Shown here piece after piece: positions 5,155 to 20,394 of a stretch of DNA of 20,480 nt. The DNA lies in NCBI RefSeq assembly GCF_001556865.1, contig NZ_LSJY01000170.1, positions 1 to 20,480 of the forward strand, read 5' to 3'. Within the stretch, counting starts at the first letter, position 1, and every line of letters starts with the position of its first letter. The notes under the pieces are model-generated. The model saw nothing but the letters and a program-made list of their open reading frames with translations. It searched no databases and had not been told where the DNA came from. Source of the stretch: Sphingobium sp. CCH11-B1 (GTDB lineage: Bacteria > Pseudomonadota > Alphaproteobacteria > Sphingomonadales > Sphingomonadaceae). A program made the translations under genes and the position numbers.

Positions 5155-5162
5155 CATTGGGG

Positions 5163-5566: not shown

Positions 5567-5847
5567 GACACTGCTCGACAGGGTCATGATGGGGTGCTGC
5601 GTTACGCGATTTTACCAAACGGCGGCCCGCAGACTGAAATAGCGGGCTGGGGGCTGCGATCATCGTCAATCGCCCGCTTTGCCTGTGTTTGTTGTGCAAT
5701 ATTCGGGGAATAGACGGGGGAGGCATAGGGGAAGGAATATGTCTCCTGCGCGACATCTGTCGTCCCGGCGATAGTCGTGGCGGGGGCATGGGATGCGCTG
5801 TTGGCATAGCCTTCGTCACAGTCGATAAAAATGAAATAGGATGAGTG
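5567..5847. other. Gene-free stretch with three mutually pairing GC elements
   Basis: No convincing gene lies in these 281 bases; the reading frames present look like shadows. GCCCGC (5625-5630), GCGGGC (5642-5647) and GCCCGC (5672-5677, followed by TTT) occur in order, so the middle element can pair with either outer one. The alternative stems are only 6-7 bp with loops of 11 and 24 bases. This could be a weak terminator for the small gene or chance. No clear promoter for the MFS gene could be named. Confidence 0.25.
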
Positions 5848-7227
5848 ATGCACAATCCGTCAATAGTGGATGCAGGTCCGCAACCGATGCCGGACGACGC
5901 ATCGCTTTCTGCCGATGGGCGATCGTTGCTATCGTGGACGATTGTCGCGCTGTTTCTGCTCAACTGCCTCAACTATATTGATCGACTGCTCTTCTCGGTC
6001 GCCCAGGAAATGATCAAGGTCGATCTCCATCTCAGCGATTTTCAGCTCGGCCTGATTGGTGGACCCGCATTCGCCATACTCTACACGGTCTTCAGTTTCC
6101 CGATCGCGCGCGCGGCGGACCGCGGTCGCCGGGTGGGGATCATCGCCATTTCGCTGACATTGTGGAGCGCCATGACGGCCTTTTGCGGAATTGCAGCCAA
6201 TTTCGTCCAGATGCTCGTCGGGCGAGCCGCCGTCAGCATTGGCGAAGCGGGATGCACGCCGGCCTCGCATTCGCTCATCTCCGACGCATTCCCCGCGCAA
6301 CGTCGAACGACCGCCATCGCCATCTTCGCGGTCGCCGGCCCCTTCGGCGCCATCGTCGCAGCGGTGGGCGGGGGCGCTTTGATCGCCGCTTATGGTTGGC
6401 GCACGGCTTTCCTCATCTGCGGAATGGCCGGCATCGTCATGGCTCTGCTGTTCCGCGCCACCGTGCCGGAACCGCCGCGCAGCCAGCCCCGATCGCATCA
6501 TTCCGCGTCTTTCATCGACACCCTCCGCCAGTTGCTGGCCCGGCGCAGCTTTGCTCTGGTGGCCGTCGCGGGGGGCGTCGCCGGGATCGGCAGCTATGCC
6601 AATCAACAATATATGGTGTCCTTCCTCATGCGCGGGCACGGCCTGTCGTTGGCCAATGCGTCGGCGCTGATGGGGCTTGTGATCGGTGGCGTCGGCATCG
6701 TCTTCACGCTGTTGGGCGGCCCGATGATGGACCTGGGTGCGCGTCGCTACCCGCGAATCAAGGCATGGCTGCCCTCCTTCGGCTTGCTCTGGTGCGGCGC
6801 GCTATATGCCGCCGCTTTTCAAATTCCTACGGTTGGTCTTGCGGTGGCGTTGATGGTGCTCGGATCCATGGGGCAGCATTTCTACATGCCCGCCATGTAT
6901 GCGCACGGACAGGATGTGGCGCCGCCGCATATGCGCGCCATGGCCTCCGCCGTGATTATCGCTACCAGTTCCATATTGGGCTATGGATTGGGCCCGCCGC
7001 TGATCGGCCTTGCCAGCGATATATTGGGGGAAAGTGCGCGGGTGTCGGCAGGCCTCAGCCTGGCCGAATGCGCCAAGCGGGCCGTCGCGGCCTGCGAGGC
7101 GGCAAGCGCACAGGGGCTGCGCCTGTCGCTCAGCCTGGGATCCTGCTTCTTCATCCTGGCCGCCGTCCTGTTTGCATTGGCAAGCCGGTGGGTGGTCGCC
7201 GATGTGCATGAACATGATCGGCACTGA
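5848..7227 (+). CDS. MFS transporter, Spinster-like
   Basis: The 459-residue polytopic membrane protein has about 12 predicted transmembrane segments. TM1 contains 'LLNCLNYIDRLLFSVAQEMI', the Asn-Tyr-x-Asp-Arg pattern frequent in the Spinster/sphingolipid-transporter-like branch of the major facilitator superfamily. The loop after TM2 has the motif A variant 'ARAADRGRRVGII', followed by 'GEAGCTPASHSLISDAF' in TM4. A loop of about 25 residues rich in Arg, Ser and His near the middle separates the two six-helix halves. A start at GTG 5845 is possible, but ATG 5848, with TAGGATGAG just ahead, is better placed. In sphingomonads these transporters often accompany aromatic, steroid or terpenoid degradation genes. 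The likely job is import of the catabolic substrate or export of a product across the inner membrane; direction and substrate are not visible. The AraC gene follows after 84 bases on the same strand. Confidence 0.9.
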   Translation: MHNPSIVDAGPQPMPDDASLSADGRSLLSWTIVALFLLNCLNYIDRLLFSVAQEMIKVDLHLSDFQLGLIGGPAFAILYTVFSFPIARAADRGRRVGIIAISLTLWSAMTAFCGIAANFVQMLVGRAAVSIGEAGCTPASHSLISDAFPAQRRTTAIAIFAVAGPFGAIVAAVGGGALIAAYGWRTAFLICGMAGIVMALLFRATVPEPPRSQPRSHHSASFIDTLRQLLARRSFALVAVAGGVAGIGSYANQQYMVSFLMRGHGLSLANASALMGLVIGGVGIVFTLLGGPMMDLGARRYPRIKAWLPSFGLLWCGALYAAAFQIPTVGLAVALMVLGSMGQHFYMPAMYAHGQDVAPPHMRAMASAVIIATSSILGYGLGPPLIGLASDILGESARVSAGLSLAECAKRAVAACEAASAQGLRLSLSLGSCFFILAAVLFALASRWVVADVHEHDRH

Positions 7228-7311
7228 CTTGCCATTCGCGATCTACAGGGAAATAATGGTCCTGCGCTTTAGGATCGAGCCAAGATTCGATCGATGGCGA
7301 GGAGGTTGAGG

Positions 7312-8199
7312 ATGCGACATGAAGCCGACCTTGGTCTGCCGCTCTGTGCCCCGCACACTGCGTCGCATTTCCATGTCGAACGGCGGTTCCATACGAACGG
7401 CATTTTCGCTGATATCCGTCACTTCGGATGGACCCAGAGCAGCCGATCGGTTTTTCGACCCGATTCCTACTATCTGGATTTTTCCATCGGCCCGCGCTGT
7501 CCCAGCGCTCGTTTCTTCAACAGCGAACGCCAACTGGCTGATCCGCCAGGCGATGTCGTCTTTCTGCCCAAGGGCGGCGCATTTGCGACCCTGAGTGAAC
7601 CGGGCGAGCACAGCCTGCTGTGCCTGACATTTGAAAACGACCGGGCGATGCAATTATTCGAGGATGACAGCGTCGCCGATCTGGCGGCATGTCAGGATGT
7701 TCAGATCGGTCGGGTGCGTCAGGGCCTTGCCCGGCTGGTGGAGGAATTGCGCAATCCAGGCTTTGGACAGGATATATTGCTCGAAAGCATGGCGTTGATG
7801 CTCGTCGTCGAACTGTGCCGGCATTTTCGCCAAGCCCAATACGATGACCGCAGCGCACATGGACAGATGCCCGGCTGGCGCTTGCGTCGCATCAAGGATA
7901 AAATAGAGGCCGATCTGGCCGAAATGCTTTCGGTGGCCGATCTGGCCGCCGAAATCCGCACCAGCCCGCGTCACTTGATCCGGACTTTCCGGGCCACCAC
8001 TGGCATCACTTTGACCGACTATATCGCCAGCCGCCGGATCGCGCGTGCGCAAGACCTGCTTGTCCGTGACGAGGCTATGATCAAGGTGATCGCCGGCAAT
8101 TGCGGCTTCCAAAGCGCTGCCGCTTTCTCGGCGGCGTTCCGGAAGGCGACCGGCATGACCCCCCGCGAATTTCGCGAAGAGCGTGGCGCATTGCGCTGA
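7312..8199 (+). CDS. AraC-family transcriptional regulator
   Basis: The protein has 295 residues from ATG 7312, chosen because GAGGAGG (7299-7305) lies 6 bases ahead; an in-frame ATG at 7294 precedes that site. Residues about 1-180 form a sensor domain of the cupin-like type ('PPGDVVFLPKGGAFATL', then 'HSLLCLTFENDRAM'). The C-terminal 100 residues are a double helix-turn-helix of the AraC/XylS type. The first helix pair is 'LSVADLAAEIRTSPRHLIRTFRATTG' and the second 'VIAGNCGFQSAAAFSAAFRKATGMTPREFREER', with the usual family signature at the end. Such regulators commonly bind direct repeats near -35 of adjacent catabolic promoters and respond to a pathway ligand. The position directly ahead of the LuxE/LuxC set suggests it controls that set, and perhaps the MFS gene; that is inference. 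Confidence 0.92.
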   Translation: MRHEADLGLPLCAPHTASHFHVERRFHTNGIFADIRHFGWTQSSRSVFRPDSYYLDFSIGPRCPSARFFNSERQLADPPGDVVFLPKGGAFATLSEPGEHSLLCLTFENDRAMQLFEDDSVADLAACQDVQIGRVRQGLARLVEELRNPGFGQDILLESMALMLVVELCRHFRQAQYDDRSAHGQMPGWRLRRIKDKIEADLAEMLSVADLAAEIRTSPRHLIRTFRATTGITLTDYIASRRIARAQDLLVRDEAMIKVIAGNCGFQSAAAFSAAFRKATGMTPREFREERGALR

Positions 8200-8235
8200 A
8201 CCAGTTCTGCGTTGGATCGCCGATCTGATATGATG

Positions 8236-8252
8236 TGAAGCATCGCGCTTCA
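8236..8252. promoter_or_regulatory. Small inverted repeat after the AraC gene
   Basis: TGAAGC (8236-8241) and GCTTCA (8247-8252) flank a 5-base spacer, 37 bases after the AraC stop. It may be a weak terminator or an operator half-site pair in the 157-base gap before the LuxE-like gene. No T-tract follows, and no convincing -35/-10 pair was found in this gap. Confidence 0.3.
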
Positions 8253-8324
8253 TGTCCGCCTGACGATGTTTGGGCGTTCCGGCTGTAGGCATCGGCATTG
8301 CGGGGAACGCCTCGCCCCCGCCAC

Positions 8325-8356
8325 AATCCGTCCCATCAAGAAGGACGGATTTTCTT
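8325..8356 (+). promoter_or_regulatory. Hairpin abutting the LuxE-like start (attenuator or RBS-masking)
   Basis: AATCCGTCC (8325-8333) and GGACGGATT (8343-8351) form a perfect 9-bp stem with a 9-base loop, followed by TTCTT and then the ATG at 8357. A stem plus T-rich run is the shape of an intrinsic terminator. The right arm also contains the only purine-rich stretch (AAGGACGG) that could serve as ribosome site for the gene. So the structure could end transcription from the AraC gene, attenuate the LuxE operon, or hide its ribosome site. Confidence 0.55.
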
Positions 8357-9772
8357 ATGAGCAGCTATCTCGATCGACTGATCGCCGATCCCACCAGTTT
8401 CCACGACGCGCCTTATGCGCAGGCCTTCACGCTCAGTCGCGAGGAGATCGACCGGCTGCATCTGGAAGGCGCGCGCAAGCGCTTTGCCGAATTGCGGCCC
8501 GGCCTGTCCATGCTGGACAAGTTGGCGCGCGAGCAGGGCATCGACGCGATCGAGACGATCGACAATCTGGCGCCGCTGCTGTTTCCCCACACTGTCTATA
8601 AATCCTATCCGATCAGCTATCTGGAACGGAGCCGTTTCGACAAGCTGACCAAATGGCTCGCGGGCCTGACGACCAGCGACATTTCCCACGTCGATGCCAG
8701 CGGTATCGAGACGATCGACGACTGGGTCGACCTGCTCGACGCGGAAACTGACCTGACCATCCAGCATACGTCCGGCACCACCGGCAAGCTGAGCTTCGTC
8801 CCTCGCCGCAAGAAGCAGTGGCGTGAAACCATTGTCCATTCGGGCGTCATCATCCGCGACTGGTGGCCGGACCGCGGTCCGGACATCGTGAAGGACGGGA
8901 TGCCGATCATCATTCCGGGCTATCGCTACGGCGCTGCTGCGATGCAGCGCGGCAACGGCATCCAAGTCGATCTCTATGCCAAGGGCGAGGAAAACACCCT
9001 GTTCCTCTACCCCAACGCCCGGTTCAGCGCGGACATCGCCTCGCTGGGCGGTCGCCTGCGCGCGGCGGAGGCGCGGGGCGAGGCCGGCATGATCGACATT
9101 CCGCCGGTCCTACTGGAACGGCGGGAGGCGCTGCTGGAACTGGAGCGCCGCCGGCCCGACGACCTCAAGCATTTCTTCAGCGAGGCGCAGCGGCGCTTCG
9201 GTGGACGCGACGTCTATGTGACAGCTATGTGGGCCATCCTCTATGACTGGGCGGAGGAGGGGCTGAAACGCGGCCTCAAGAACGTCTTCGGAAAGGGCAG
9301 CGTGCTGCTGACCGGGGGCGGCAAGAAGGGCAAGGAACTACCCGACGACTGGCGCGAGCGCGTGATCGAATTTCTGGGTTTCGACACCATCTATGAAATG
9401 TACGCCACATCAGAGCAGATGGGTCTGTCGATGATGTGCGAGCATGGCCATTATCACGTCCCACCCATCCAGATCCCGTTCCTGCTCGATCCGGCGACCG
9501 GAAAGCCCCTGCCGCGTAAGGATGGCCTGACCGGCCGCTATGCCTCGTTCGACCTGATGCCCAACACCTATTGGGCCGGGCTGGTGACGGGGGACGAGAT
9601 CACGCTGGCCGGCTGGGAAAAGCCCTGCGCCTGCGGTCGCACCGGGCCGTACGTCATTCCGCCGGTGCGCCGCTACAGCGAGCAGGAAGGCGGCGATGAC
9701 CGCATCGTGTGCGCCGGTGCCCCCGAGGCGCACGACCGCGCCCTCGAATTTCTTGCCGAACTGTCGATGTGA
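8357..9772 (+). CDS. LuxE-like acyl-protein synthetase (first copy)
   Basis: The 471-residue protein belongs to the ANL-type adenylating enzymes near LuxE and phenylacetate-CoA ligase. The nucleotide loop is 'HTSGTTGKLSF' (Ser139-Lys144). A 'YEMYATSEQMG' A5-type motif is at 346-356, and 'LVTGDEITLAGW' supplies the ribose-binding Asp. A zinc-type 'CACGRTGP' (Cys424, Cys426) follows. Cys452, in 'DDRIVCAGA', lies 20 residues from the end. LuxE of luminous bacteria carries the acyl group on a Cys near its C-terminus before passing it to LuxC, and Cys452 is a good candidate. At 471 aa it is about 100 residues longer than classic LuxE. The start at ATG 8357 excludes about 29 upstream in-frame residues that would overlap the hairpin and look non-coding. 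The LuxC-like gene starts 8 bases after the stop, so the two are cotranscribed. A CoA-ligase activity remains the main alternative. Confidence 0.85.
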   Translation: MSSYLDRLIADPTSFHDAPYAQAFTLSREEIDRLHLEGARKRFAELRPGLSMLDKLAREQGIDAIETIDNLAPLLFPHTVYKSYPISYLERSRFDKLTKWLAGLTTSDISHVDASGIETIDDWVDLLDAETDLTIQHTSGTTGKLSFVPRRKKQWRETIVHSGVIIRDWWPDRGPDIVKDGMPIIIPGYRYGAAAMQRGNGIQVDLYAKGEENTLFLYPNARFSADIASLGGRLRAAEARGEAGMIDIPPVLLERREALLELERRRPDDLKHFFSEAQRRFGGRDVYVTAMWAILYDWAEEGLKRGLKNVFGKGSVLLTGGGKKGKELPDDWRERVIEFLGFDTIYEMYATSEQMGLSMMCEHGHYHVPPIQIPFLLDPATGKPLPRKDGLTGRYASFDLMPNTYWAGLVTGDEITLAGWEKPCACGRTGPYVIPPVRRYSEQEGGDDRIVCAGAPEAHDRALEFLAELSM

Positions 9773-9780
9773 GTAGAGCC

Positions 9781-11238
9781 ATGACCGATCCATTCCGCGT
9801 GCCCCTGATCATCCGGGGCCAGATTATCGATGATGCCGAGGTCGACTATGGCGGCCGCCGGGGCGGCGTTAGTTTCTCGGCGCCTGACATTGCCAAACAT
9901 GTGGCGCGCCTGCCGCTGCGCACCCCTTCGGCCATGGCCGACCTCTATGCGCTGAGCTTTGACGAAATACTCGATTTCCTCGTCGCCCTGGGGCAGCGGC
10001 TCGATTTCGGCCAGAACCGGCATTTGCAGGAGGCATTTCGCCTGTCCTGTCAGACCTCCGGCCTGTCCGAGAGTATATTGCGCGTCCATTTCCAGTATAT
10101 CGGCGCGGCCTTCGATCGCACCGAAATGCGGCGGATGATGGAACGCTCCTGCGGCATCGACTATCTGGAAGGCTGGGTGGATCAGGGGGCTGGCAGATTT
10201 CCGGGTCTCACCGCCCGCACGCGCGCCTTCGGTGCGCGGACCGTGCACGTCATTGCCGGCAATGCGCCGATCGTGTCGATCCTGACGGTGATCCGCAATG
10301 CGCTGACCCGGTCCGACGCGATCATCAAGCTGCCGTCCAACGATCCGCTGACGGCCGCCGCGCTGGTGCGCACCATGGTCGAGATGGACCCCGACCATCC
10401 GCTGTCGAAACATGTCTCCGTCGCCTATTGGAAAGGCGGCGACGATCAGGTGGAGTCGGCAATCTACGATCCGCGCGGCGTTGAGAAGATCGTTGCCTGG
10501 GGCGGGTTCGATTCGGTCAAGCATATCACGCGCTATCTGCAACCGGGCATCGACCTCATCACCCAGGACCCCAAGCTGTCGGGGACGATCATCGGTCGTG
10601 AAGCCTTCGCCGACGAGGAGACGCTGGAGCAGGTGGCGCGCCGTCTGGCGCTCGATATCGGCGCGCAAAATCAGGAAGGCTGCGTGTCCGCACGCGTCAT
10701 CTATGTCGAATGCGGCACGGACGAAGCCGGGCTGGAGTGTGCCAATCGGCTGGGGCAGATGACCTTCGACGCTCTCCAGCGCCTGCCCGATCATCTGAGC
10801 ACGCCGCACAAGGCGTTTGACGGTGCGCTCAAGGCCGAGATCGACGGCATCCGCCTCAACGACGAGGATTATCGCATCTTCGGCGGCCGCACCAACGAAG
10901 GCGCGGTGATCGTGAGCCAGGAAGAATATCCGGTCGATTTTTCGCGCACGCTCGCCTGCCGGGTGGGCAATATCGTGCCCATCGACAGCCGGGAAACGGC
11001 CGTCAGTGCGGTCAACGCCTATACCCAGACGATCGGCATCTTTCCCGAAAGTCTCAAGGACGAGCTGCGCGACCGCCTCGCCTTTCAGGGCGCGCAGCGG
11101 ATCGTATCGCTGGGCGGGGCTGCGACGATGCAGCATAATATGGAAAGGCAGGACGCGATCGAGCCGGTCCGCCGCATGGTGAAGTGGGTCACGGAAGAAC
11201 AGGCATCGGGCGAGATGCTGGCTGCGCTGGCAGGCTGA
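9781..11238 (+). CDS. LuxC-like acyl reductase (first copy)
   Basis: The 485-residue protein has the length of LuxC. In the Lux system LuxC is the NADPH-dependent reductase that turns the acyl group delivered by LuxE into an aldehyde. The dehydrogenase-type core is visible as 'VHVIAGNAPIVSILTVIRNAL' and 'DAIIKLPSNDPLTAAALVRTM'. 'AYWKGGDDQVESAIYDPRGVEKIVAWGG' follows, then the nucleophile region 'GAQNQEGCVSARVIYVE', where Cys301 is the candidate catalytic cysteine (LuxC-type NQxxCxS pattern). The C-terminal part, 'TQTIGIFPESLKDELRD' and 'GAQRIVSLGGAATM', is also LuxC-like. I prefer ATG 9781, although an in-frame ATG exists upstream inside the LuxE gene, because homologous N-termini begin near 'MTDPFRVPLIIRGQ'; the ribosome site is weak (GAGTAGAG). 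The substrate may be a non-fatty acid. The amidohydrolase gene starts 14 bases after this stop. Confidence 0.9.
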   Translation: MTDPFRVPLIIRGQIIDDAEVDYGGRRGGVSFSAPDIAKHVARLPLRTPSAMADLYALSFDEILDFLVALGQRLDFGQNRHLQEAFRLSCQTSGLSESILRVHFQYIGAAFDRTEMRRMMERSCGIDYLEGWVDQGAGRFPGLTARTRAFGARTVHVIAGNAPIVSILTVIRNALTRSDAIIKLPSNDPLTAAALVRTMVEMDPDHPLSKHVSVAYWKGGDDQVESAIYDPRGVEKIVAWGGFDSVKHITRYLQPGIDLITQDPKLSGTIIGREAFADEETLEQVARRLALDIGAQNQEGCVSARVIYVECGTDEAGLECANRLGQMTFDALQRLPDHLSTPHKAFDGALKAEIDGIRLNDEDYRIFGGRTNEGAVIVSQEEYPVDFSRTLACRVGNIVPIDSRETAVSAVNAYTQTIGIFPESLKDELRDRLAFQGAQRIVSLGGAATMQHNMERQDAIEPVRRMVKWVTEEQASGEMLAALAG

Positions 11239-11252
11239 GAGGAGCCAGGGAC

Positions 11253-12965
11253 ATGGTGAAAGCTGATCTGGTGATCCGGGGCGGCACGATCGTCGACGGG
11301 CAGGGCGGCGATCCGTTCGAGGCGGACATTGCCATCGTTGATGGACGTATCGCGAGGATCGGCGTTGACGTCGGGCGGGGGCGAGAGGAGATCGACGCCC
11401 GCGACCTCCTCGTCACGCCCGGCTTCGTCGATGTTCATACCCATTATGACGGACAGGTCACATGGACGGACAGTCTGGTGCCGTCCACCGACCATGGTGT
11501 CACCACCGTCGTTATCGGCAATTGCGGTGTCGGCTTCGCGCCGTGCCGGCCGAAGGACCGCGAAGCGCTGGTCAACGTCATGGAGGGGGTGGAGGACATT
11601 CCCGAAGCGGTGATGGCCAAGGGCCTGCCTTGGAACTGGGAGAGCTTCCCAGACTATCTGAAATCCCTGGAAGCGCGCGCATGGGACGCCGATGTCGGCG
11701 CCTATATTCCCCATTCGCCCCTGCGGGTCTATGCGATGGGCCAGCGCGGGCTGGATCGCGAGCCGGCGACGGCAGCGGATGTCGCGCGGATGGCGCAACT
11801 GGTGGCGGAGGGGATGGCGGCCGGGGCGCTTGGCTTTGCCACATCCCGTTCGCTGGTGCACCGGCGCGGCGACGGCGCGTTCATCCCGTCCTTTCAAGCG
11901 GACAGCGACGAACTGGTGGCGATCGCCCGATCGGTCGGGGATGCGGGGCGCGGCGTGCTGCAGATGATCCCCAATCTCGATACCGCCGACTGGGCCAGCG
12001 ATCTCGACCTCATGAAGCGCATGACCAGCACGTCGGGGCGTCCGTTGACCTATTCGCTCGCCCAATGGTCGACCGATCCGCAGGGTTGGCGGCGCACCAT
12101 GGATGCGCTCGCCGAACATAATCGCAGCGGCGCGGCGCCAGTGCTGGCGCAGGTTTTCCCCCGGCCGATGGGTGCGATGTGCGGGTTATCGACGTCGGCC
12201 AACGCGTTCAGCCATTGTGCAAGCTATCGTGCGATCGCCGACCGGCCGCTGGCGGAAAAGGTCGCCATCATGCGTGATCCCGCCTTCCGCGCCCTGCTGA
12301 TCGCGGAGGAGCCCGACGAGACGCCGACGCCGCTGCATCGCTTGCTGCGGACATGGGACAATATCTATCCGCTGGGAGCCGAGCCCGATTATGAGCCGTC
12401 ACCAGACCAGAGCATCGCCGCGCTGGCCGGACAGCGCGGCGTCAGCCCGGTCGAACTGGTCTATGATCTGATGCTGGAGCAGGACGGCCATGCGCTGATC
12501 CTGATGCCCTTTTCCAATTATGCGGAAAGGTCGCTCAACCCTGCCCTGGCCATGATGCGCGATCCCTACAGCATCGTGGGACTGGGCGACGGCGGCGCGC
12601 ATTATGGCATCATCTGTGATGCCAGCTATCCGACCACGATGCTGGCCTATTGGACCCGCGATCGGGCTGGCGAGCAACTAACGATCCCGGCGGCGGTCAA
12701 GGCTCTGAGCGCGGACAATGCCGACTTCCTGGGACTGCGGGACCGGGGGCGGCTGAAGCCGGGATTGAAGGCCGACATCAACCTGATCGATCATGGTGCG
12801 CTGCACTTGCATGCCCCCCATGTCGTGCATGATCTGCCCGGCGGCGGGCGCCGTCTGGCGCAGCAGGCCACCGGTTATCGCGCCACGATGGTCAGCGGGG
12901 TCATCACCCGGCGGGACGGCGCCGATACCGGCGCGCGTCCCGGAAGGCTCATCCGCGCCGCCTGA
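11253..12965 (+). CDS. N-acyl-D-amino-acid deacylase-type amidohydrolase
   Basis: The 570-residue protein starts at ATG 11253, with AGGAG at 11240-11244. It is a metal-dependent amidohydrolase of the D-aminoacylase group. The N-terminal 'ADLVIRGGTIVDGQGGDPFEADI' strand block is the small beta domain. The metal-binding 'VDVHTHYDGQVTW' has His62 and His64. 'VIGNCGVGFAPCRP' places Cys91 where D-aminoacylases have a zinc-ligand cysteine. 'VGLGDGGAHYG' (Asp446) carries the catalytic aspartate region, and the C-terminal beta domain ends with 'LKPGLKADINLIDHG'. Such enzymes release a free acid from an N-acyl amino acid or related amide. Here the released acid could feed the acid-reducing LuxE/LuxC pair just upstream; that link is inference. 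The true substrate may be another cyclic or linear amide, because this family is broad and often misannotated. The stop codon abuts that of the convergent gene. Confidence 0.9.
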   Translation: MVKADLVIRGGTIVDGQGGDPFEADIAIVDGRIARIGVDVGRGREEIDARDLLVTPGFVDVHTHYDGQVTWTDSLVPSTDHGVTTVVIGNCGVGFAPCRPKDREALVNVMEGVEDIPEAVMAKGLPWNWESFPDYLKSLEARAWDADVGAYIPHSPLRVYAMGQRGLDREPATAADVARMAQLVAEGMAAGALGFATSRSLVHRRGDGAFIPSFQADSDELVAIARSVGDAGRGVLQMIPNLDTADWASDLDLMKRMTSTSGRPLTYSLAQWSTDPQGWRRTMDALAEHNRSGAAPVLAQVFPRPMGAMCGLSTSANAFSHCASYRAIADRPLAEKVAIMRDPAFRALLIAEEPDETPTPLHRLLRTWDNIYPLGAEPDYEPSPDQSIAALAGQRGVSPVELVYDLMLEQDGHALILMPFSNYAERSLNPALAMMRDPYSIVGLGDGGAHYGIICDASYPTTMLAYWTRDRAGEQLTIPAAVKALSADNADFLGLRDRGRLKPGLKADINLIDHGALHLHAPHVVHDLPGGGRRLAQQATGYRATMVSGVITRRDGADTGARPGRLIRAA

Positions 12966-12977
12966 TCAAGCGCGCGG
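12953..12977. terminator. Possible two-way hairpin at a convergent junction
   Basis: CCGCGC (12953-12958) and GCGCGG (12972-12977) can pair across a 13-base loop that contains the two abutting stop codons (TGATCA, 12963-12968). There is no T-tract on either side, so it is at best a weak terminator for both convergent transcripts. Confidence 0.3.
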
Positions 12978-14033
12978 CCGGATATTTGTGCCGCCCGTCA
13001 GCCCATGGCGGATGAAGGGTGAGGCGAGGAAATCATGCGGAAAGCCGAGCGGCGTGCGGCTCACCGTATCCAGCCGTTCCAGTTGCGCGGGCTCCAGCCT
13101 GACGCTAAGCGCGGCGACATTGTCCGCATATTGCCGCATTGTCCGCGCGCCTAGCAGCGGCGAGACGACTGCCGGATTGGCAAGGGTCCAGGCGATCGCC
13201 ACTTGCGCCGAGGTGACGCCCATCTCGTCGGCGACGGCCTTCACCGCGTCCGCAATGGCCACCACGCGCGCATCGACGCGGCCTGCCGCTTCGAGCAGGG
13301 AGCCACGGCCGCCAGCCTCGCCGGCATGGGCGCTGCCACCAGTCGCATATTTGCCCGACAACATGCCGCTCGCCAGCGGCGACCAGGGCATGACGCCGAT
13401 ACCCAGCGCCTTGGCGGCGGGGATAAGGTCGCGCTCGGCCGTGCGCTCAACCAGATTATATTCGGACTGCAAGGCCACCAGCTGGCTCCAGCCACGCAAT
13501 TCCGACATGGTCTGCAACCGGGCCATCTGCCAGGCGGGAGTATCCGACAGTCCAAGATAGAGGATTTTCCCCTGCGTCACCAGATCGTCGAACGCGCGCA
13601 ATATCTCGTCCGCCGGCGTCATGTCGTCCCAGACATGCAGGAAGAACAGGTCGATCCGGTCCGTCTTCAGTCGCTTGAGGCTGGTTTCGACCGTCTGCAC
13701 CATGTTGCGGCGGCTGTTGCCGGCGGCATTGGGATCGCCGACTGAGCGGGTCAGCGAATATTTGGTGGAAAGAACCAGCCGTTCGCGCTTTGCCTCTGCG
13801 AACTTGCCCGTCAATGTCTCCGACGCGCCGTCGGCATAATAGCCCGCCGTGTCGATGAAGTTGCCGCCCTGATCGACATAGCTGTCGAAGATACGGCGGG
13901 ATTCCTGCTCGTCCGCACCCCATTCTTCGCCAAAGGTCATGGTTCCCAGCGCCAGCGGAGAAACGCGCAGGCCCGAGCGGCCGAGCAGGCGATAGCTGTC
14001 GAGCGACAGCGCCTGAATAGTCGTCTGTGTCAT
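12966..14033 (-). CDS. Aldo/keto reductase
   Basis: The 355-residue protein starts at the ATG complementary to 14031-14033, 8 bases after the upstream LuxC-like stop. The frame is also open further upstream, but there it merely crosses the LuxC gene in another register. The NADP-dependent (alpha/beta)8 barrel family is clear: 'YRLLGRSGLRVSPLALGTMTFG' at the N-terminus, then the catalytic tetrad Asp61 and Tyr66 ('DTAGYYADG'), Lys91 ('LSTKYSLT') and His133 ('FFLHVWDD'). 'GVMPWSPLASGMLSGKYATGG' is typical of the AKR groups that include YajO-like and voltage-channel beta-subunit-like enzymes. It would reduce an aldehyde or ketone to an alcohol, or run in reverse. Its place behind the second LuxE/LuxC pair suggests it acts on the aldehyde made there; that is inference. 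Confidence 0.94.
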   Translation of the reverse strand: MTQTTIQALSLDSYRLLGRSGLRVSPLALGTMTFGEEWGADEQESRRIFDSYVDQGGNFIDTAGYYADGASETLTGKFAEAKRERLVLSTKYSLTRSVGDPNAAGNSRRNMVQTVETSLKRLKTDRIDLFFLHVWDDMTPADEILRAFDDLVTQGKILYLGLSDTPAWQMARLQTMSELRGWSQLVALQSEYNLVERTAERDLIPAAKALGIGVMPWSPLASGMLSGKYATGGSAHAGEAGGRGSLLEAAGRVDARVVAIADAVKAVADEMGVTSAQVAIAWTLANPAVVSPLLGARTMRQYADNVAALSVRLEPAQLERLDTVSRTPLGFPHDFLASPFIRHGLTGGTNIRPRA

Positions 14034-14041
14034 GATCTGGT

Positions 14042-15454
14042 TCAATCTTTCGCTGCTTCCGTGACGACCCAATGCATCATCTTGTGCACGGGCCATCCCC
14101 CATCGTGCGGCAGGCCGCCGAATTTTCCGGTGTTGATGTTGCCCAGGCCGACGATGCGCTGGGCGCCCGCCGAGGCAAGCCCGTCGCGCACCTCGGCAAT
14201 GCGGGAGGGGGGATAGACGCCGACCGACTGGGTCGCGACGGTGACATGCTGGATCGCGTCCGCAAGCCGATCGACGGTGACGACATTGACGAGCTTGCCG
14301 CCCGGATTGAACGACACCGGTTCGCTGGAGCGGATGACCATGCCCCGGCCGTCGGGCCGCCCGAACAGGCGATAGATGGGCTCCAGATTGCCCAGCATGT
14401 TCAGTTCCTCGATCAGCATGGCGGGCGGCAGCGGGCCGTCGGACCCCGCGCCATAGCGGATGTCCTGGCCCATCGCCTCCACCAGCGCTTCGCAATAGCG
14501 GTCGACCTGATCGTCCGATCCCTCGATGAACTGGAAGCGGGCGCAACTGCACGCATCCTGGTTGAAGGCAATGATGTCGGCCGCGCTTCTTTCGGCGACG
14601 GTCGAGAGGGGGACGCCGTCAAAGGCTTCGCGACCGATCAGCGAGATGGACACCTTCGGATCGAAGGACATGATCTCGAAGCCCGGCGCGGCATATTGCA
14701 TGGCATGGCGCACCGCCGCCTCGCCGCCCCAGACGGCGAGCTTGTCGAAATATTGCGAGCGCAGGATGTGATTTTCGATGCTGGCATCGCCGCCGCGCCA
14801 GTAAGCGGCGGAAAAGGACCGCGTCACCGGATGGTTGGGGCCGACATCCGCCATCGTCCGCAGCAGGGCGGTCGCCGTGAACATGTCGTTGGACGGCATT
14901 TTCAGCAGGTGGACGCCCTTGCTGATCGCCCCTCGGACGATCGTGACCGGCGGCACGATCGGGGCGTTGCCGGCCAGAATATGCACCATACGCGGCGGGA
15001 AGGCGCGGATGTCGAAGGCCGTGCCCTGAATGTCGCGTCGCGCCCATCCATCCAGCAGGTCAAGCGATCCCAGCGACTGTTCGGCCTCCGCCTCGACCGC
15101 GTCGCGGGTGAAGAACCAGGCGATGTCGCGGTAGCAATTCTCGAGAATGCGCGCGCCCAGGCTGTTACAGCGCAGATTATAGGCCGCGGCCTCCTGAAGA
15201 TGGATATTCCGGTCGAAATCGAGCGCCTTGCCGACCTCGACGAGGAAATCCACGATCTCCGCAAGCTGCGTGTCGAAGGCGGGACCGGGCTGGCTGCGTT
15301 GCCAGATCAGCGAGTCCAGATCGATCGACGGGGTCATGACCGTCGAGCCGCTGGCCCGCGACCGATGCTCCACGGCGGCGTCGAGTTGAACCACACCCTT
15401 TATCACATGGGGAACGAGCAGCCGATCATTATCAGCGATGATTTCATGCAGCAT
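14042..15454 (-). CDS. LuxC-like acyl reductase (second copy)
   Basis: The 470-residue protein starts at the ATG complementary to 15452-15454, with GGAGG 5 bases ahead on the coding strand. It is related to, but clearly diverged from, the first LuxC-like protein. Shared blocks are 'MVHILAGNAPIVPPVTIVRGAI', 'HLLKMPSNDMFTATALLRTM', 'AYWRGGDASIENHI', and the nucleophile region 'AFNQDACSCARFQFIEG' with Cys302. That Cys aligns within one residue of Cys301 in the first copy. The C-terminus has 'TQSVGVYPPSRIAEVRD' and 'GAQRIVGLGNINTG', where the first copy has 'GAQRIVSLGG'. It is expected to reduce a LuxE-bound acyl group to an aldehyde. The start is 16 bases after the LuxE-like stop and the AKR begins 8 bases after its own stop, so all three should form one transcript. 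Confidence 0.9.
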   Translation of the reverse strand: MLHEIIADNDRLLVPHVIKGVVQLDAAVEHRSRASGSTVMTPSIDLDSLIWQRSQPGPAFDTQLAEIVDFLVEVGKALDFDRNIHLQEAAAYNLRCNSLGARILENCYRDIAWFFTRDAVEAEAEQSLGSLDLLDGWARRDIQGTAFDIRAFPPRMVHILAGNAPIVPPVTIVRGAISKGVHLLKMPSNDMFTATALLRTMADVGPNHPVTRSFSAAYWRGGDASIENHILRSQYFDKLAVWGGEAAVRHAMQYAAPGFEIMSFDPKVSISLIGREAFDGVPLSTVAERSAADIIAFNQDACSCARFQFIEGSDDQVDRYCEALVEAMGQDIRYGAGSDGPLPPAMLIEELNMLGNLEPIYRLFGRPDGRGMVIRSSEPVSFNPGGKLVNVVTVDRLADAIQHVTVATQSVGVYPPSRIAEVRDGLASAGAQRIVGLGNINTGKFGGLPHDGGWPVHKMMHWVVTEAAKD

Positions 15455-15470
15455 GTCTGCCTCCTGTCGT

Positions 15471-16847
15471 TCAGGCCGCGACCGGCTGGGGCGCGGTGAT
15501 CGATCCGCGCACGTAGGAATCGATCGATCCGGCGCAACTAAGCTTGTCCTCGCCCTCCTCCAGATCGGCGTAGCGGGCGATGGCATGGACGACCGGCGTC
15601 TTCACGCCTTCCAGGCCGGAGCCGAATTCCACCTGCACCTTGTCGCCGGAAATGATGCCGCCCCACCGGCCGTCCGCCAATATGTCGAAGAACGCCATGC
15701 GGCCTTCCACCCGGCCCGTATCCTTGGTCGTGCCCAGCAGCGTTTCGCCAGGCTTGTCGAGGATGAGGGGGATGATCCATGGCGGCACTGCATAGGATTC
15801 GGTCGGCTGGATCTTGGCGCAGAAGCCGCTCATTTCGACCATGGCATAGGAACTGGTGATGCGGTCCGGCGTGACGCCGAAAAAGCCCATAATCTGTTCC
15901 TTATAGTCGGCTGGGACCGCTGCCCCCTTGGTGCCTCCGCCAAAGCTCATCAGCGTGTCGGGATGGAAATCGCCATCCTCGATCCCGCGTGCGCGCAGAG
16001 CCTGCACGATCTGCCAGGCGACGCCATACATGACGCCGATATAGAGCGGGCGATCCCGGCGGCTGACAAGCAGGTCCATCCAGGCGTCGAACTCGCCGGC
16101 GCGCGCCTGCTGACGGGCCTCGATCTCCGCCTCGTAGGCGGCGATCTCACCGGGACCGACCTTGCCGGCCGCCAGCAGGCGGCGCAGCTGCGCGGGGCGC
16201 ATGGCGTCGAAGGCGCGCATCGGATAGTCGCTCAGGCGATGAAATTCGCCGGGCGCGGCCCAGCGCGGGAAATGGACGTTGCAGAATTCGATCATCTTAT
16301 GGGTGCCGCGCGGCGGCATCATGGTGAAGACCGAGCGGCCATGATCGGGGGCATAGGCCGGTGTCGACAGGTCGGCCGCGGCCAGACAGGCGGCGAGCGA
16401 CAGGTCGCGGTCCTGCGTCGACTGATTTAGGAAAGAGGATTTGCCCGACGTCCCGCTCGACGCGAAGACATGGTGGCCCGCCGCCCTGGCGCGATCCAGC
16501 CATTCGTCGATGTCGCGCACGTCCGCAACGTCGATATTGTCGGTGGCATGGCTGCTCAGCGTACCGAGCCACATGTTCATATGCTTCCACTGGCCATTGT
16601 CGACGAACGCTTCGGGATAGCTCTTATAATTGGTGTGGGCGAACAGGAGCGGGACGAGATCGGCCAGGCTGTCGATCCTGCCGATGCCAGCTTCCTTCGC
16701 CCGCTTGTCGAGCACCCTGATCTGCTGGCGGCGCTCAGCGAAGCGCTCGCGCGCCGCTTCCAGTTGCAGGTCGGCCAGATTGTCCGGGGCGTTACGGAAC
16801 GGATCGGGCGACCGGGCAAGGGCGATCAATTCGTCAACGGCGCTCAT
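15471..16847 (-). CDS. LuxE-like acyl-protein synthetase (second copy)
   Basis: The 458-residue protein is first in the - strand set. GAGGAG lies about 10 bases before the ATG complementary to 16845-16847. The nucleotide loop is 'ASSGTSGKSSF' (Ser130-Lys136), followed by 'SSYAMVEMSGF' in the A5 position and 'GIISGDKVQVEF' with the ribose-binding Asp. The tail has 'EDKLSCAGS', with Cys438 21 residues from the end. The same pattern occurs in the first copy ('DDRIVCAGA', Cys452), although the tails around it differ; this supports an acyl-carrier cysteine as in LuxE. Unlike the first copy it lacks the 'CACGRTGP' element, so the two copies are likely to differ in structure and substrate. It should activate an acid with ATP and pass it to the LuxC-like protein encoded next. 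Confidence 0.83.
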   Translation of the reverse strand: MSAVDELIALARSPDPFRNAPDNLADLQLEAARERFAERRQQIRVLDKRAKEAGIGRIDSLADLVPLLFAHTNYKSYPEAFVDNGQWKHMNMWLGTLSSHATDNIDVADVRDIDEWLDRARAAGHHVFASSGTSGKSSFLNQSTQDRDLSLAACLAAADLSTPAYAPDHGRSVFTMMPPRGTHKMIEFCNVHFPRWAAPGEFHRLSDYPMRAFDAMRPAQLRRLLAAGKVGPGEIAAYEAEIEARQQARAGEFDAWMDLLVSRRDRPLYIGVMYGVAWQIVQALRARGIEDGDFHPDTLMSFGGGTKGAAVPADYKEQIMGFFGVTPDRITSSYAMVEMSGFCAKIQPTESYAVPPWIIPLILDKPGETLLGTTKDTGRVEGRMAFFDILADGRWGGIISGDKVQVEFGSGLEGVKTPVVHAIARYADLEEGEDKLSCAGSIDSYVRGSITAPQPVAA

Positions 16848-17066
16848 CAGTGAAAACTCCTCTCAGCTTTGCCGGGAAGTATAGGCGACGCCCGATATTT
16901 GGCCGCTCGATTCACTGTTATGGGGAGGACATACTATTCTCAGCATGACCTTTCCGCCCGATGGCGTGCCGATCCCTCCATCAAAATCCAATGGCTATCT
17001 TTCGGCAGGGCAGAAGGGGGCCGCCTCGCGCCATGATGCCCGCGCAACACAGGAGCAGGGGGTGAC
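16848..17066. promoter_or_regulatory. Divergent promoter region between LuxE-like and epoxide-hydrolase-like genes
   Basis: The 219 bases between two divergent start codons must hold outward promoters for the - strand LuxE/LuxC/AKR set and the + strand LEH/LLM/methyltransferase set. A TACTAT hexamer (16932-16937) could be a -10 for the + strand, with TTCACT (16911-16916) at a short 15-base spacing. It is only a weak candidate. No clear operator repeat was seen. Confidence 0.4.
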
Positions 17067-17441
17067 ATGCCCGGTCCACTGGACGAAGCATTGGCGTTTT
17101 TTCGGGAAAGCAGCGGCTCGCGCGACGACATGCTGTCCGCCATGGAGCGCCGGTTTACGGCGGATACGCGTTGGGAAAATGTCGGCGTGGCGACGACTGT
17201 CGGGATCGATCAGGCGAGGCAGTTCGTCGAGGGCTTTTTGGGCCGGATTCCTTTCGAACGCTGCGAGGTCGTGGTCCATCATGCGGCGGCCGCTGGCAAC
17301 GTGGTCCTGACCGAGCGCAGCGATATTTTCTACGGACCGGATGGGCAGGAAATGCTCTCGCTGCGGCTGATGGGTGCGCTGGAAATGGATGGGTCCCATA
17401 TCGTCGCCTGGCGTGACTATTTCGACACAAGCGGCTTTTAA
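17067..17441 (+). CDS. Limonene-1,2-epoxide hydrolase-like (LEH/SnoaL-fold) protein
   Basis: This is a 124-residue NTF2/SnoaL-fold protein. AGGAG (17051-17055) and GGGGG precede ATG 17067. The catalytic set known from the Rhodococcus limonene epoxide hydrolase is Tyr53/Asn55, Arg99, Asp101, Trp130, Asp132. It is matched here by Trp36/Asn38 ('RWENVG'), Arg84 and Asp86 ('VLTERSDIF'), and Trp115 and Asp117 ('AWRDYFD'). The spacing from Arg84 to Asp117 equals that from Arg99 to Asp132. Only the Tyr is changed, to Trp. Such enzymes open an epoxide with water to give a trans-diol in one step without a covalent intermediate. The LLM gene starts 12 bases after the stop. A ketosteroid-isomerase-like role of this fold is the alternative, but the Arg-Asp-Asp set argues for LEH. 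Confidence 0.82.
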   Translation: MPGPLDEALAFFRESSGSRDDMLSAMERRFTADTRWENVGVATTVGIDQARQFVEGFLGRIPFERCEVVVHHAAAAGNVVLTERSDIFYGPDGQEMLSLRLMGALEMDGSHIVAWRDYFDTSGF

Positions 17442-17453
17442 AGGGGGATGGGG

Positions 17454-18476
17454 ATGACCGATCGCAAGGCTGTCTGGGCGCAGATCGTCCCGATGCCGGG
17501 CGCCGATCTGTCGGCGCTGGCACAGAGCTACGAAGCGGCGGGCGTGGAAGGGGTGTGGGCGCCCCAGATGTTCGGCGCGCCCTTTACGACGCTGGCTACC
17601 GTCGCCCCGGCTACGCAGCGCATCAAGCTGGGGACCGGCATCGCGCTGGCGTTCGTGCGCAGTCCGCTGGAAACCGCCTGCAGCGCCATCGACCTGGACC
17701 TCATCAGCAACGGCCGGGTGGTGCTGGGACTGGGATCCAGCGCGCAGAGCCAGATCGAGGGATCGTTCGGCAGCGCCTATGGCAAGCCGCTCGCCCATAT
17801 GCGTGAGATCGTGGGCATGATCCGCGCCATCGTCGCACGCGGGCATACGGGCGAACTCACCGAACTGGCGGGCGACTATCATCGTCTCGACCTTTCGCAC
17901 TTCCGCCTGCTGCACAAGCCGGTGCGCGGCGACATTCCCATCGTTCTGCCGGCGGTGTTTCAGAAGGCCTGCGCACAGGCGGCGGAAATCGCCGACGGGC
18001 TGCTCGGGCACCCACTGTGGAACGATGCCTGGATCGAGCGGGAAGTGGCCGCTCAAATCAAGGCCGGGCTGGATCGGGCCAGGCGGGCGCGCAAGGACTT
18101 CTCGCTCAACATCTCGATATTCACGGCGATTTCGGATGACAGGCGCGAAGCGATCGAAGATTGTCGGGGGACCGTGGCCTATTACAGCCAGTCACCCCAA
18201 TATCTGCGCTATTTCGAGGAAATCGGTTTCGGCCGCGAGGCATCGGCGATCCAGGCCGCCTTCGCGCAGGGCGACATGGCGGGTATGGCGGCGGCCTGCT
18301 CCGACGAAATGGTGGAGAGCATCGCCGTGGTTGGAACGGTTGATGAGGTGCGCAGCCGGGTTGCCCGGCGCGCCGCCCTGGCCGACGCGATTACGCCGGT
18401 GATCCCTCATTATGGCCTGTCGCCCGAAAAAAGCGCGATCTACACGCAGCGCATCGCGGAGACATTTTATGGCTGA
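17454..18476 (+). CDS. LLM-class (luciferase-like) flavin-dependent oxidoreductase
   Basis: The 340-residue protein starts at ATG 17454; ATG 17448 is also possible because an AAGGGGG run covers both. The luciferase-like fold of single-chain type is visible in 'ALAQSYEAAGVEGVWAPQMFG', 'TQRIKLGTGIALAFVRSPLETACSAIDLDLISNGRVVLGLGSS', and the C-terminal 'VGTVDEVRSRVARRA' helix. Members use reduced FMN or coenzyme F420; the sequence by eye does not decide which. Candidate roles are an aldehyde or ketone monooxygenase (the LuxAB branch) or an F420-type hydride transfer on a hydroxyl or double bond. It overlaps the next gene by 8 bases (ATGGCTGA), a classic translational coupling. It is the only luciferase-like gene in the window, so no LuxAB-type heterodimer is encoded here. 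Confidence 0.9.
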   Translation: MTDRKAVWAQIVPMPGADLSALAQSYEAAGVEGVWAPQMFGAPFTTLATVAPATQRIKLGTGIALAFVRSPLETACSAIDLDLISNGRVVLGLGSSAQSQIEGSFGSAYGKPLAHMREIVGMIRAIVARGHTGELTELAGDYHRLDLSHFRLLHKPVRGDIPIVLPAVFQKACAQAAEIADGLLGHPLWNDAWIEREVAAQIKAGLDRARRARKDFSLNISIFTAISDDRREAIEDCRGTVAYYSQSPQYLRYFEEIGFGREASAIQAAFAQGDMAGMAAACSDEMVESIAVVGTVDEVRSRVARRAALADAITPVIPHYGLSPEKSAIYTQRIAETFYG

Positions 18477-19516
18477 TCCCGCCGCTGCCTCCAGCAGGGG
18501 AAGCGCGGTACAACCGCCATTCGGGTCTGCAACAGGCCAATCTGCAATCCGCGCTTCCCCTGCTGGAGGCAGCGGCGCGGGCCATTGGGGACGGTTCTGT
18601 CGGTCCCGTCACCATTGTCGATTATGGCGCGTCGCAAGGACGCAATTCGATGGCGCCGATGGCGACAGCTATCGATCTGGTTCGCGCGCACGACGCGCAG
18701 CGGCCGGTGCAGGTCGTGCATACGGATCTGCCCTCGAACGATTTCACCTCGCTGTTCGGCCTGCTGGACCGGGATCCGGCCAGCTATCTGAATGGCCGAC
18801 AGGGCGTCTTTCCATCCGCGATCGGCCGATCCTATTTCGATGCGATATTGCCGCCCGGCAGCGTCGACCTGGGCTGGTCCTCCAACGCGCTGCACTGGAT
18901 GAGCCGCAATCCGGTCGATGTCGCGGATCATGGCTGGGCGATCTTCAGTCGGTCCGCGCAGGCGCGTGCCGCCGTCGAGGCCGTGCTGGCGGAGGATTGG
19001 CTGGCCTTCCTGAAGGCGCGCGCTGTCGAATTGCGGCCGGGAGGACGCCTGATCTGTCAGTTCATGGGCAGGGGACCCGACAGCCACGGCTTCGAATGGA
19101 TGGCCGGAAATTTCTGGCAGTCGATCGTCGACATGGAAGGCGAAGGCCTGCTCAACGCCGAGGAGACGCTAAGGATGACGGCGCCCTCCGCGGGGCGTTC
19201 GCCCGATCAGATACAAGCGCCTTTCGATGCCGGCCTGGTGCCCGAACTGGAACTGGAGCATCTCGCCGCGATCCCGTCCCCTGATCCCTATTGGGATGCT
19301 TATCAGCTATCCGGCGATGCGGCCGAACTGGGGCGGCTGTGGGCAGCCATGATGGGTGCGGCCAACGGCCCCAACTTCCTGACGCGGGTCGATGCGTCCC
19401 GCGACCGGGACGCGTTGTTGGCCAGTCTGGTGCAGCGGGTCGCGACCCGTGTCGAGGCCGATCCTCAGCGCAGCCGTGCCTTTATCCTGATCCTGTCGAT
19501 CCGGAAGGCGGTTTGA
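18469..19516 (+). CDS. SABATH-type SAM-dependent carboxyl methyltransferase, frame broken near its start
   Basis: The protein family is clear. 'RYNRHSGLQQANLQSALPLL' opens the fold, and SAM motif I is 'VDYGASQGRNSMAPM'. 'VDLGWSSNALHWMSRNP' is the SABATH 'SLHWLS' signature, and 'PGGRLICQFMGRG' matches the family's 'GGRMVLTFLGR' block. SABATH enzymes methylate small-molecule carboxyls such as salicylate, IAA or gibberellins. The frame carrying these motifs is open from before 18469 to the TGA at 19514-19516, but it has no ATG before 18650, which lies inside motif I and would give a protein missing the fold's first strand. The natural ATG (18469, overlapping the LLM stop) is in the neighbouring frame. 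Dropping one C of CCC at 18478-18480 joins them and gives a sensible 348-residue protein beginning MADPPLPPAGEARYNRHS, near the family's usual 350-380. Either +1 slippage, a real mutation or a sequence error is involved. Confidence 0.8.
18480..18577. repeat. Perfect 29-bp inverted repeat inside the methyltransferase gene
   Basis: The arms 18480-18508 and 18549-18577 are exact reverse complements over 29 bases, separated by 40 bases. The left arm begins at the last base of the CCC triplet where the reading frame breaks. The right arm encodes 'ALPLLEAAAR' of the fold; the left arm encodes the odd proline-rich start. A hairpin this perfect in coding DNA is unusual. Confidence 0.9.
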
Positions 19517-19532
19517 AGCGCGAAGGGCGCTT
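19516..19532 (+). terminator. Small hairpin after the methyltransferase stop
   Basis: AAGCGC (19516-19521) and GCGCTT (19527-19532) flank a 5-base loop directly at the stop codon. No T-tract follows, and the SDR gene begins 71 bases after the methyltransferase stop. At most it modulates readthrough into that gene. Confidence 0.25.
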
Positions 19533-19587: not shown

Positions 19588-20394
19588 ATGACCCGCCTTG
19601 CCGACAAAATCTGCATCATCACCGGCAGCGGGAGCGGCATCGGACGCGCCAGCGCGCTGATGTTCGCGCGAGAAGGCGCGACGGTGATCGTCGCGGATAT
19701 TCGCGCCGAAGCTGCCGAGATGACCGCGCAGGCCGTTGTCGATGCCGGCGGATCAGCGCGCGCGATGACCGTCGATGTCGGTGAACAGGCCGATCTGGAG
19801 AAGATGGTCAGCCAGACGATCGCCGACTTCGGTCGCATCGACGTGCTCTTCAACAATGCCCTGTACGTCAATCAGGACCACGCCATGCGCGACATGGATT
19901 TCCTGACCTTCGACCCCGCCATATTCCTCGCCAATCTGAGGGTGAATGTATTGGGCGCGGTTCTGGCGAGCAAACTCGCCATTCCGCATATGCTGGAGCG
20001 CGGCGCGGGGTCGATCATTTCCACCTCTTCGGGCAGTTCCATGGGCGGGGATATCACAGCCTATAGCTATGGATCGTCCAAAGCTGCGCTCAACTGGTTC
20101 GTGCAGGCGATCGCCGCCACCTATGGCAAGCGGGGTATCCGCAGCAATGCGATCTTACCCGGTCCGACACAGACGCCGGCCAAGCTGCAATGGTCCACGC
20201 CCGAGATGGATCGGCTGTTTCTGGAGGTGCTCAACACGCCCTTCATCGGCGAGCCGGAAGACATCGCCGCCATGGCGCTGTTCCTGGCGTCCGACGAATC
20301 CCGTTACGTCAACGGCATGTTGTATCCCGTCGATGGCGGTCAGAGCTGCACCGTGCCGTTCATCAGCGTCACGCGGGCCTTGTCCCCCGGATGA
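19588..20394 (+). CDS. Short-chain dehydrogenase/reductase (SDR)
   Basis: The 268-residue classical SDR starts at ATG 19588 with GGGAGAGG (19573-19580) ahead. The nucleotide-binding 'TGSGSGIGR' is at residues 12-20. 'VADIR' with Asp37 favours NAD over NADP. The catalytic set is Asn120 ('NLRVNVLG'), Ser147/148 ('STSSGSS'), Tyr161 and Lys165 ('YGSSK'). The usual NNAG reads 'NNALY', a small change. The C-terminus has 'NAILPGPTQTPAKL' and 'NGMLYPVDGGQSC', the normal SDR ending, followed by a short extension. It would oxidise a hydroxyl or reduce a ketone, possibly on the diol or alcohol made by neighbours. It is probably the last or a middle gene of the LEH-LLM-methyltransferase set. Confidence 0.95.
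   Translation: MTRLADKICIITGSGSGIGRASALMFAREGATVIVADIRAEAAEMTAQAVVDAGGSARAMTVDVGEQADLEKMVSQTIADFGRIDVLFNNALYVNQDHAMRDMDFLTFDPAIFLANLRVNVLGAVLASKLAIPHMLERGAGSIISTSSGSSMGGDITAYSYGSSKAALNWFVQAIAATYGKRGIRSNAILPGPTQTPAKLQWSTPEMDRLFLEVLNTPFIGEPEDIAAMALFLASDESRYVNGMLYPVDGGQSCTVPFISVTRALSPG

Follow-up and report, generated by a model that had tools for sequence, protein, structure and literature searches.

Twin LuxE-LuxC-like cassettes in a Sphingobium gene cluster as candidate CoA-independent carboxylic acid reductases

Canonical LuxE, the partner of LuxC in the fatty acid reductase of lux systems, carries the acyl group on a cysteine in its C-terminal tail. The mel2 locus of Mycobacterium marinum combines genes for a luciferase-like monooxygenase (LLM) and an epoxide hydrolase with a claimed LuxC-like gene (PMC1793995). 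Here we describe a stretch of 20,480 nucleotides from Sphingobium sp. CCH11-B1 (contig NZ_LSJY01000170.1, positions 1 to 20,480; hereafter the window) that encodes two LuxE-like proteins, each beside a LuxC-family reductase. We consider it probable that these pairs are two separate carboxylic acid reductases that depend on ATP and NAD(P)H, work independently of CoA, and feed an aldo-keto reductase (AKR) in one pathway.

The first pair comprises LuxE1, an acyl-protein-synthetase-like adenylating enzyme (8357..9772, + strand, 471 residues, SGTTGK at 139-144), and LuxC1 (9781..11238, +, 485 residues). An Amidohydro_3 amidohydrolase with D-aminoacylase as nearest solved relative (11253..12965, +) is the third gene of this run. 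The second run, on the − strand, consists of LuxE2 (15471..16847, 458 residues), a second LuxE-like adenylating enzyme about 31% identical to LuxE1, LuxC2 (14042..15454, 470 residues), and the AKR (12966..14033; nearest solved relatives DepB 8hwn and 7utf, tied). The LuxE1-LuxC1-amidohydrolase run converges on the AKR-LuxC2-LuxE2 run, the amidohydrolase and the AKR ending at the adjacent positions 12965 and 12966, and a further + strand run (LEH/SnoaL-LLM-SABATH-short-chain dehydrogenase/reductase, SDR) is divergent from LuxE2. Open reading frame (ORF) coordinates, strands and a family scan thus agree with the original prediction, made from the sequence alone, of two pairs that face each other and an LLM divergent from the second.

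Both reductases belong to the LuxC family: their PF05893 scores are 147 bits for LuxC1 (E 7e-43) and 164 bits for LuxC2 (E 8e-48), against a cut-off of 21. Among solved structures at E <= 0.001 both match the LuxC of 7xc6 alone (E ~1e-29 to 1e-30), and the grouping with non-reducing dehydrogenases that would have spoken against the original prediction was not seen. Cys301 of LuxC1 and Cys302 of LuxC2, which it had named as nucleophiles, are matched to the DQQAC segment in the solved LuxC structure 7xc6_A, and all 79 aligned LuxC proteins have a cysteine in this catalytic-type column. Since both proteins lie far under the cut-off of the NCBIfam equivalog for luminous LuxC (NF052251; 137 and 144 bits, cut-off 750), we assign them to a different subfamily from luminous LuxC.

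The LuxE-like proteins keep the C-terminal cysteine that had been predicted, within the tail motifs DRIVCAG (Cys452 of LuxE1) and DKLSCAG (Cys438 of LuxE2). It is present in all 76 rows that reach the position, three rows being gapped there, and in 10 of 10 LuxE2-type rows. The predicted model of LuxE1 (predicted local distance difference test, pLDDT, 83.7; predicted template modelling score, pTM, 0.86) has an adenylation fold. VIA-align matches model residues ~17-445 to the PaaK and BT_0428 ligases over chain residues ~4-334 of ~430; a 2-hydroxyisobutyryl-CoA ligase is matched to chain residue 374 of ~475. About 100 C-terminal residues of PaaK-type ligases are left without a counterpart, and LuxE1 ends ~26 residues past the matched adenylation domain, too early for the PaaK C-terminal domain. 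LuxE2 ends 20 residues past its tail cysteine. Cys452 itself lies in a low-confidence tail of the model (442-459). Because the PaaK C-terminal domain is absent and the tail cysteine is invariant, the modelled architecture speaks for a thioester held on the enzyme rather than for free CoA.

Neither LuxE1 nor LuxE2 matches the Pfam LuxE family (PF04443), even at E <= 10, and LuxE1 has only a sub-threshold match to Pfam AMP-binding. When an 18-row LuxE1 profile is compared with solved structures, 7xc6_E ranks highest (E 0.004), nearly tied with the PaaK-like ClxA in second place (E 0.007). In profile-profile comparisons, an 87-row LuxE1 alignment that stops at residue 435, before the tail, scores 122 against five canonical PF04443 proteins (E 4e-16) and 54 against PaaK proteins (E 2.7e-6); because the control alignments (5 LuxE proteins, and 8 of 12 fetched PaaK proteins) are small and of unequal diversity, we count this result as support, not proof. 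By the same method the LuxE1 and LuxE2 alignments are one family (E 7e-82). Among 7995 candidates scored, 509 are LuxE1 homologues at E <= 0.001; most are unnamed or called 'hypothetical protein' in databases, and they come from genomes ranging from Pseudomonadota to Hodarchaeota. Sequence comparison places both window proteins in this divergent LuxE-like family, and most likely they work like LuxE while standing outside the Pfam LuxE family. In Hodarchaeota metagenome-assembled genomes (MAGs; L052, L054, L066, L088), LuxE relatives at 37-39% identity have a LuxC-like gene next to them or in the vicinity.

Pairing of the two genes was surveyed in 84 loci and the window. Four LuxE places at contig edges were set aside, and in 89 of the 100 judged places a LuxC lies on the same strand no more than 400 bases away. 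When each gene is typed by its best match in the window, LuxE1-type genes are paired with LuxC1-type genes in 75 of 75 cases and LuxE2-type with LuxC2-type in 14 of 14. Of the 11 unpaired places, six showed no LuxC anywhere in the locus and one is an extra copy adjoining a pair; two others have LuxC on the opposite strand within 3 kb, and the last two are rows from a single archaeal locus in which LuxC lies at a greater distance. The six loci without a LuxC match, all distant, are L061, L065, L074, L078, L079 and L086; a TauD-family cluster gene directly follows LuxE in L061 and L065. The partners also diverge in parallel: for 79 of the 89 pairs (the other ten, being identical, short, broken or X-bearing, were left out), the LuxE and LuxC distance matrices give a Mantel r of 0.955, a value reached by 0 of 2000 permutations.

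This correlation in part reflects shared descent, and it is one of several points that weigh against a CoA-independent LuxE-LuxC reductase. LuxE may be able to stand alone, since eight of the 11 unpaired places hold distant relatives (36-39%), mostly from sphingomonads, and in six no LuxC was found in the locus. The tail cysteines of the window family and of canonical LuxE share a segment, not an aligned column. Of 120 listed LuxE1 relatives, 87 were scanned, and at E <= 0.01 equal numbers match PF04443 (16/87) and AMP-binding PF00501 (16/87). The best folds for the LuxE1 model are CoA ligases (Foldseek template modelling score ~0.48-0.5), not LuxE, and 7xc6_E is absent among the Foldseek and VIA-align matches listed for it; the LuxE2 model is too poor to use (mean pLDDT 55). 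A 10-row LuxE2 alignment is equally near the LuxE and PaaK profiles (scores 51 and 53), and the window itself offers no evidence of substrate. Some findings speak for a CoA-dependent route in which the LuxE-like proteins are PaaK-type CoA ligases and LuxC reduces ordinary acyl-CoA: the best LuxE1 folds are of that type, LuxE2 ties, and beta-oxidation genes surround the Paraburkholderia copies. The unmatched PaaK C-terminal domain, the invariant tail cysteine, the nearer LuxE profile of LuxE1 and the gene-by-gene pairing with LuxC nevertheless make this route unlikely. The grouping with CoA ligases that would have refuted the original prediction is not borne out by the profiles for LuxE1, while LuxE2 gives a tie.

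From gene content, pairing, conserved cysteines, the architecture of the LuxE1 model and joint inheritance, we infer the catalytic steps, cofactors, direction and substrate of a CoA-independent reduction as follows. LuxE would adenylate a carboxylic acid with ATP and transfer the acyl group onto its tail cysteine, Cys452 or Cys438. From this position, the acyl group would pass to Cys301 or Cys302 of the partner LuxC, which would reduce it with NAD(P)H and release the aldehyde. The AKR co-encoded with LuxC2 and LuxE2 may then reduce an aldehyde to the alcohol. We surmise that the two pairs are not spare copies but act on two carboxyls of one compound, or on two successive acids. This compound may be a hydrophobic acid of plant or terpenoid type, which the amidohydrolase might release from an amide.

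The same proteins might run in the opposite direction, with LuxC oxidizing aldehydes onto its cysteine and LuxE or water releasing the acid, for aldehyde detoxification. LuxC is indeed related to aldehyde dehydrogenases (ALDH; PF05893 gives E 2e-5 on an Aldedh protein), and in genome G001, which carries the same genes as the window, a member of that ALDH cluster lies ~13 kb from LuxE1. However, an ATP-using LuxE has no obvious role in oxidation, and its tight pairing with LuxC renders detoxification very unlikely. More improbable still is an acyl-derived modification in place of catabolism, as LuxE/LuxC may provide beside flagellin-modification genes (the terms 'LuxC' and 'acyl-protein synthetase' reportedly occur in two papers on flagellin modification), since the annotated neighbours are TonB receptors, major facilitator superfamily (MFS), SDR, SnoaL, kinase-like, glutathione S-transferase (GST), GMC and ALDH genes, with no flagellar gene among the annotated genes of the window and the G001 flanks, where not every gene is annotated.

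Both LuxE1- and LuxE2-type genes are found in 11 of the 79 genome loci retrieved with the LuxE1 profile, namely in five Sphingobium, a Hirschia MAG, Novosphingobium lentum, two other sphingomonad MAGs, a gammaproteobacterial MAG and a Verrucomicrobiaceae MAG. The last two have the tandem order LuxE2-LuxC2-MFS-amidohydrolase-LuxE1-LuxC1. They also lack the AKR, which is present in all nine sphingomonad and Hirschia loci (9/11 overall); the amidohydrolase occurs in 8 of the 11. In the LuxE tree, a quick search with midpoint root and long-branch warnings, ten twin LuxE1 rows form one group (SH-like approximate likelihood ratio test, SH-aLRT, 96) and thirteen LuxE2-type rows another (100; 99 for the eleven twin ones). 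Both groups share the main splits, setting the gammaproteobacterial/Verrucomicrobiaceae pair apart and keeping Sphingobium together, with some forks unresolved. The same main splits in both groups indicate that the two cassettes travelled together for long; judged from the tree, the twin cassette is an old unit of joint inheritance. A recent duplication of one cassette was rejected, given the low identity of LuxE1 and LuxE2 and their separate tree groups. Five other loci (L040, L042, L045, L051, L092) combine two or three LuxE genes in other ways, and therefore several acid reductions in one cluster would not be unique to the twin cassette. In the Sphingobium relative G333 (contig 11, 49872-50649; L112, L126) the LuxE2 match is split over two frames and that search gave no LuxE1 match; this is apparently a decaying cassette.

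The run divergent from LuxE2 is accessory. It consists of the LEH/SnoaL-like protein (17067..17441, +), the LLM oxidoreductase (17448..18476, +; PF00296 E 2e-54), a SABATH carboxyl methyltransferase (18473..19516, start putative, +; nearest solved relative the 'fatty acid O-methyltransferase' 5f2k) and an SDR oxidoreductase (19588..20394, +). The original prediction had grouped the LLM with the pairs and named co-occurrence with LEH, LLM and SABATH genes as a check. The set stands beside the twin cassette in only 4 of the 11 twin loci retrieved, all Sphingobium; among the 11, locus L023 stops 1.2 kb beyond LuxE2. In S. fontiphilum only window positions 5935-16849, the core from MFS to LuxE2, can be aligned. 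On this distribution we reject the LLM as a core member. At E <= 1e-10 the LLM matches six solved structures; each is a methylenetetrahydromethanopterin reductase, and three carry 'F420-dependent' in their names. The LLM stays under every NCBIfam LLM cut-off, with an F420 LLM family coming closest (202 bits, cut-off 278). A Pfam scan of 16 window ORFs detected one LLM and no LuxD-type acyl-transferase, in agreement with the original prediction, which held bioluminescence to be unlikely. We reject bioluminescence because no LuxD was found and the single LLM is nearest to methylenetetrahydromethanopterin reductases.

Unexpectedly, the LuxE family tracks F420 biosynthesis in Sphingomonadaceae. 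CofH exceeds its cut-off in 4 of 4 twin-cassette Sphingobium genomes tested. A LuxE2 query at E <= 1e-20 finds a LuxE-family match in 24 of 397 Sphingomonadaceae genomes, and 55 of the 397 have CofH; CofH is present in 17 of the 24 LuxE-bearing genomes and in 38 of the 373 others (Fisher 4e-11). Relatedness was handled at genus level only, where the figures are 12/15 and 15/81 (7e-6). For the 99 genomes with listed size, CofH occurs in 7/7 LuxE-bearing versus 4/26 other genomes of at least 3.4 Mb (8e-5), and in 1/4 versus 3/62 below that size (0.23). As a control for catabolic versatility, a ring-hydroxylating dioxygenase is present in 21/24 LuxE-bearing versus 212/373 other genomes (p 0.002), a weaker link than that with CofH. 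The LuxE-CofH link persists among the 233 dioxygenase-bearing genomes (16/21 versus 24/212) and is weak within the genus of G001 (3/5 versus 2/6). We regard this association as a separate lead. A more speculative, rather doubtful proposal would join it to the twin cassette as a two-ended acid-reduction module in an F420-using sphingomonad pathway, each pair serving one carboxyl (or successive acids) of a terpenoid-like compound with the acyl group passed on without CoA; if true, this would link aerobic alphaproteobacterial catabolism to F420.

The + strand of the window reads TonB receptor, APH-like kinase (998-2425), TonB receptor, MFS transporter (5845..7227), AraC-family regulator (7294..8199, immediately upstream of LuxE1), LuxE1, LuxC1 and Amidohydro_3; the MFS gene lies upstream in all five Sphingobium twin loci. 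Promoter and terminator motif counts in the window show no excess over shuffled sequence. The same genes recur at 94-100% protein identity in G001 and in contigs of S. soli, S. abikonense and S. xenophagum. In G001 they are flanked downstream by more SnoaL-like, APH/EcKL kinase-like, GST and SDR genes, and upstream by a GMC oxidoreductase and the ALDH-cluster member. Compared with L010 and L012, window positions 1-19779 are a mosaic: the part at 14-19 kb shares 99.2-99.7% identity with S. soli, and identity to S. xenophagum is 99.8-99.9% at 0-2 kb and just 89% at 8 kb. This pattern suggests recombination inside the cluster. APH/EcKL-like phosphotransferases recur near LuxE-LuxC clusters (window 998-2425; L006 5834-7207 and 82-1188; L096 12153-13205; L092 6714-7853).

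Beyond the sphingomonads, LuxE1-LuxC1 (62-63%) lies in six Paraburkholderia/Burkholderia genomes among cytochrome P450, FAA hydrolase, 3-hydroxyacyl-CoA dehydrogenase, thiolase and amidohydrolase genes. On chromosome 3 of P. xenovorans LB400 the pair occupies 656.6-659.4 kb, ~50 kb from a ring-hydroxylating dioxygenase (alpha subunit at 604.1 kb, beta at 605.6 kb), in a region that also includes two P450s, several acyl-CoA dehydrogenases and an APH-like kinase. We count these P450 and beta-oxidation settings in favour of the proposed acid reduction. A published 80-kb abietane-diterpenoid (dit) cluster on this chromosome reportedly has similar content and may be the same region; the gene after the dioxygenase beta subunit, however, encodes a glyoxalase-family protein where a ferredoxin was expected. 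Four Burkholderiales have LuxE-LuxC near a thiamine pyrophosphate enzyme and a flavin monooxygenase, and in two of these an FMN-dependent 2-hydroxyacid dehydrogenase is called as well. A Mycobacterium avium plasmid (L089 8826-14796) carries LLM, LuxE, LuxC, a phosphotransferase and an SDR in this order, with a 4-base overlap between LLM and LuxE; LLM and kinase-like genes thus recur there beside LuxE-LuxC.

To our knowledge, a catabolic role of LuxE-LuxC chemistry would be the first known, if true. The PMC matches listed include no paper on LuxE-LuxC in catabolism, which is weak evidence of absence since subscription journals mostly fall outside. If our reading is correct, the pairs are compact two-protein catalysts that convert acids to aldehydes and need no CoA, and they could help to explain how certain Sphingobium and Paraburkholderia deal with carboxylic acids on which ordinary beta-oxidation cannot start.

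Several described systems bear comparison. Kinship with mel2 was rejected because the paper on that locus reports no clear LuxE homologue; the alpha/beta fold of the mel2 hydrolase is another difference (PMC1793995). PaaK phenylacetate-CoA ligases differ from the window proteins by their further C-terminal domain, by the lack of such a tail cysteine and by scoring less well against the LuxE1 profile. Loci L129-L133, which have a PF04443 LuxE and the same gene order, show a LuxE tail cysteine (GCSD) and, after LuxE, an ORF that resembles LuxC by eye; their LuxE is short (338-360 residues), and in L129-L132 an adjoining ORF resembles, again by eye, a full AMP-binding ligase. The lux fatty acid reductase (7xc6) shares with the window the LuxC homology and its cysteine, the position of LuxE beside LuxC, and a weak similarity of the LuxE1 profile to 7xc6_E. 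In contrast to 7xc6_E (373 residues), the window LuxE proteins are 85-98 residues longer and fall outside PF04443. Unlike the lux operon, the window has no LuxD, LuxA or LuxB among the 16 ORFs scanned, and it unites two different pairs in one cluster with an AKR and an amidohydrolase attached. LuxE-LuxC acid reduction would extend from light emission to a large, mostly unnamed family.

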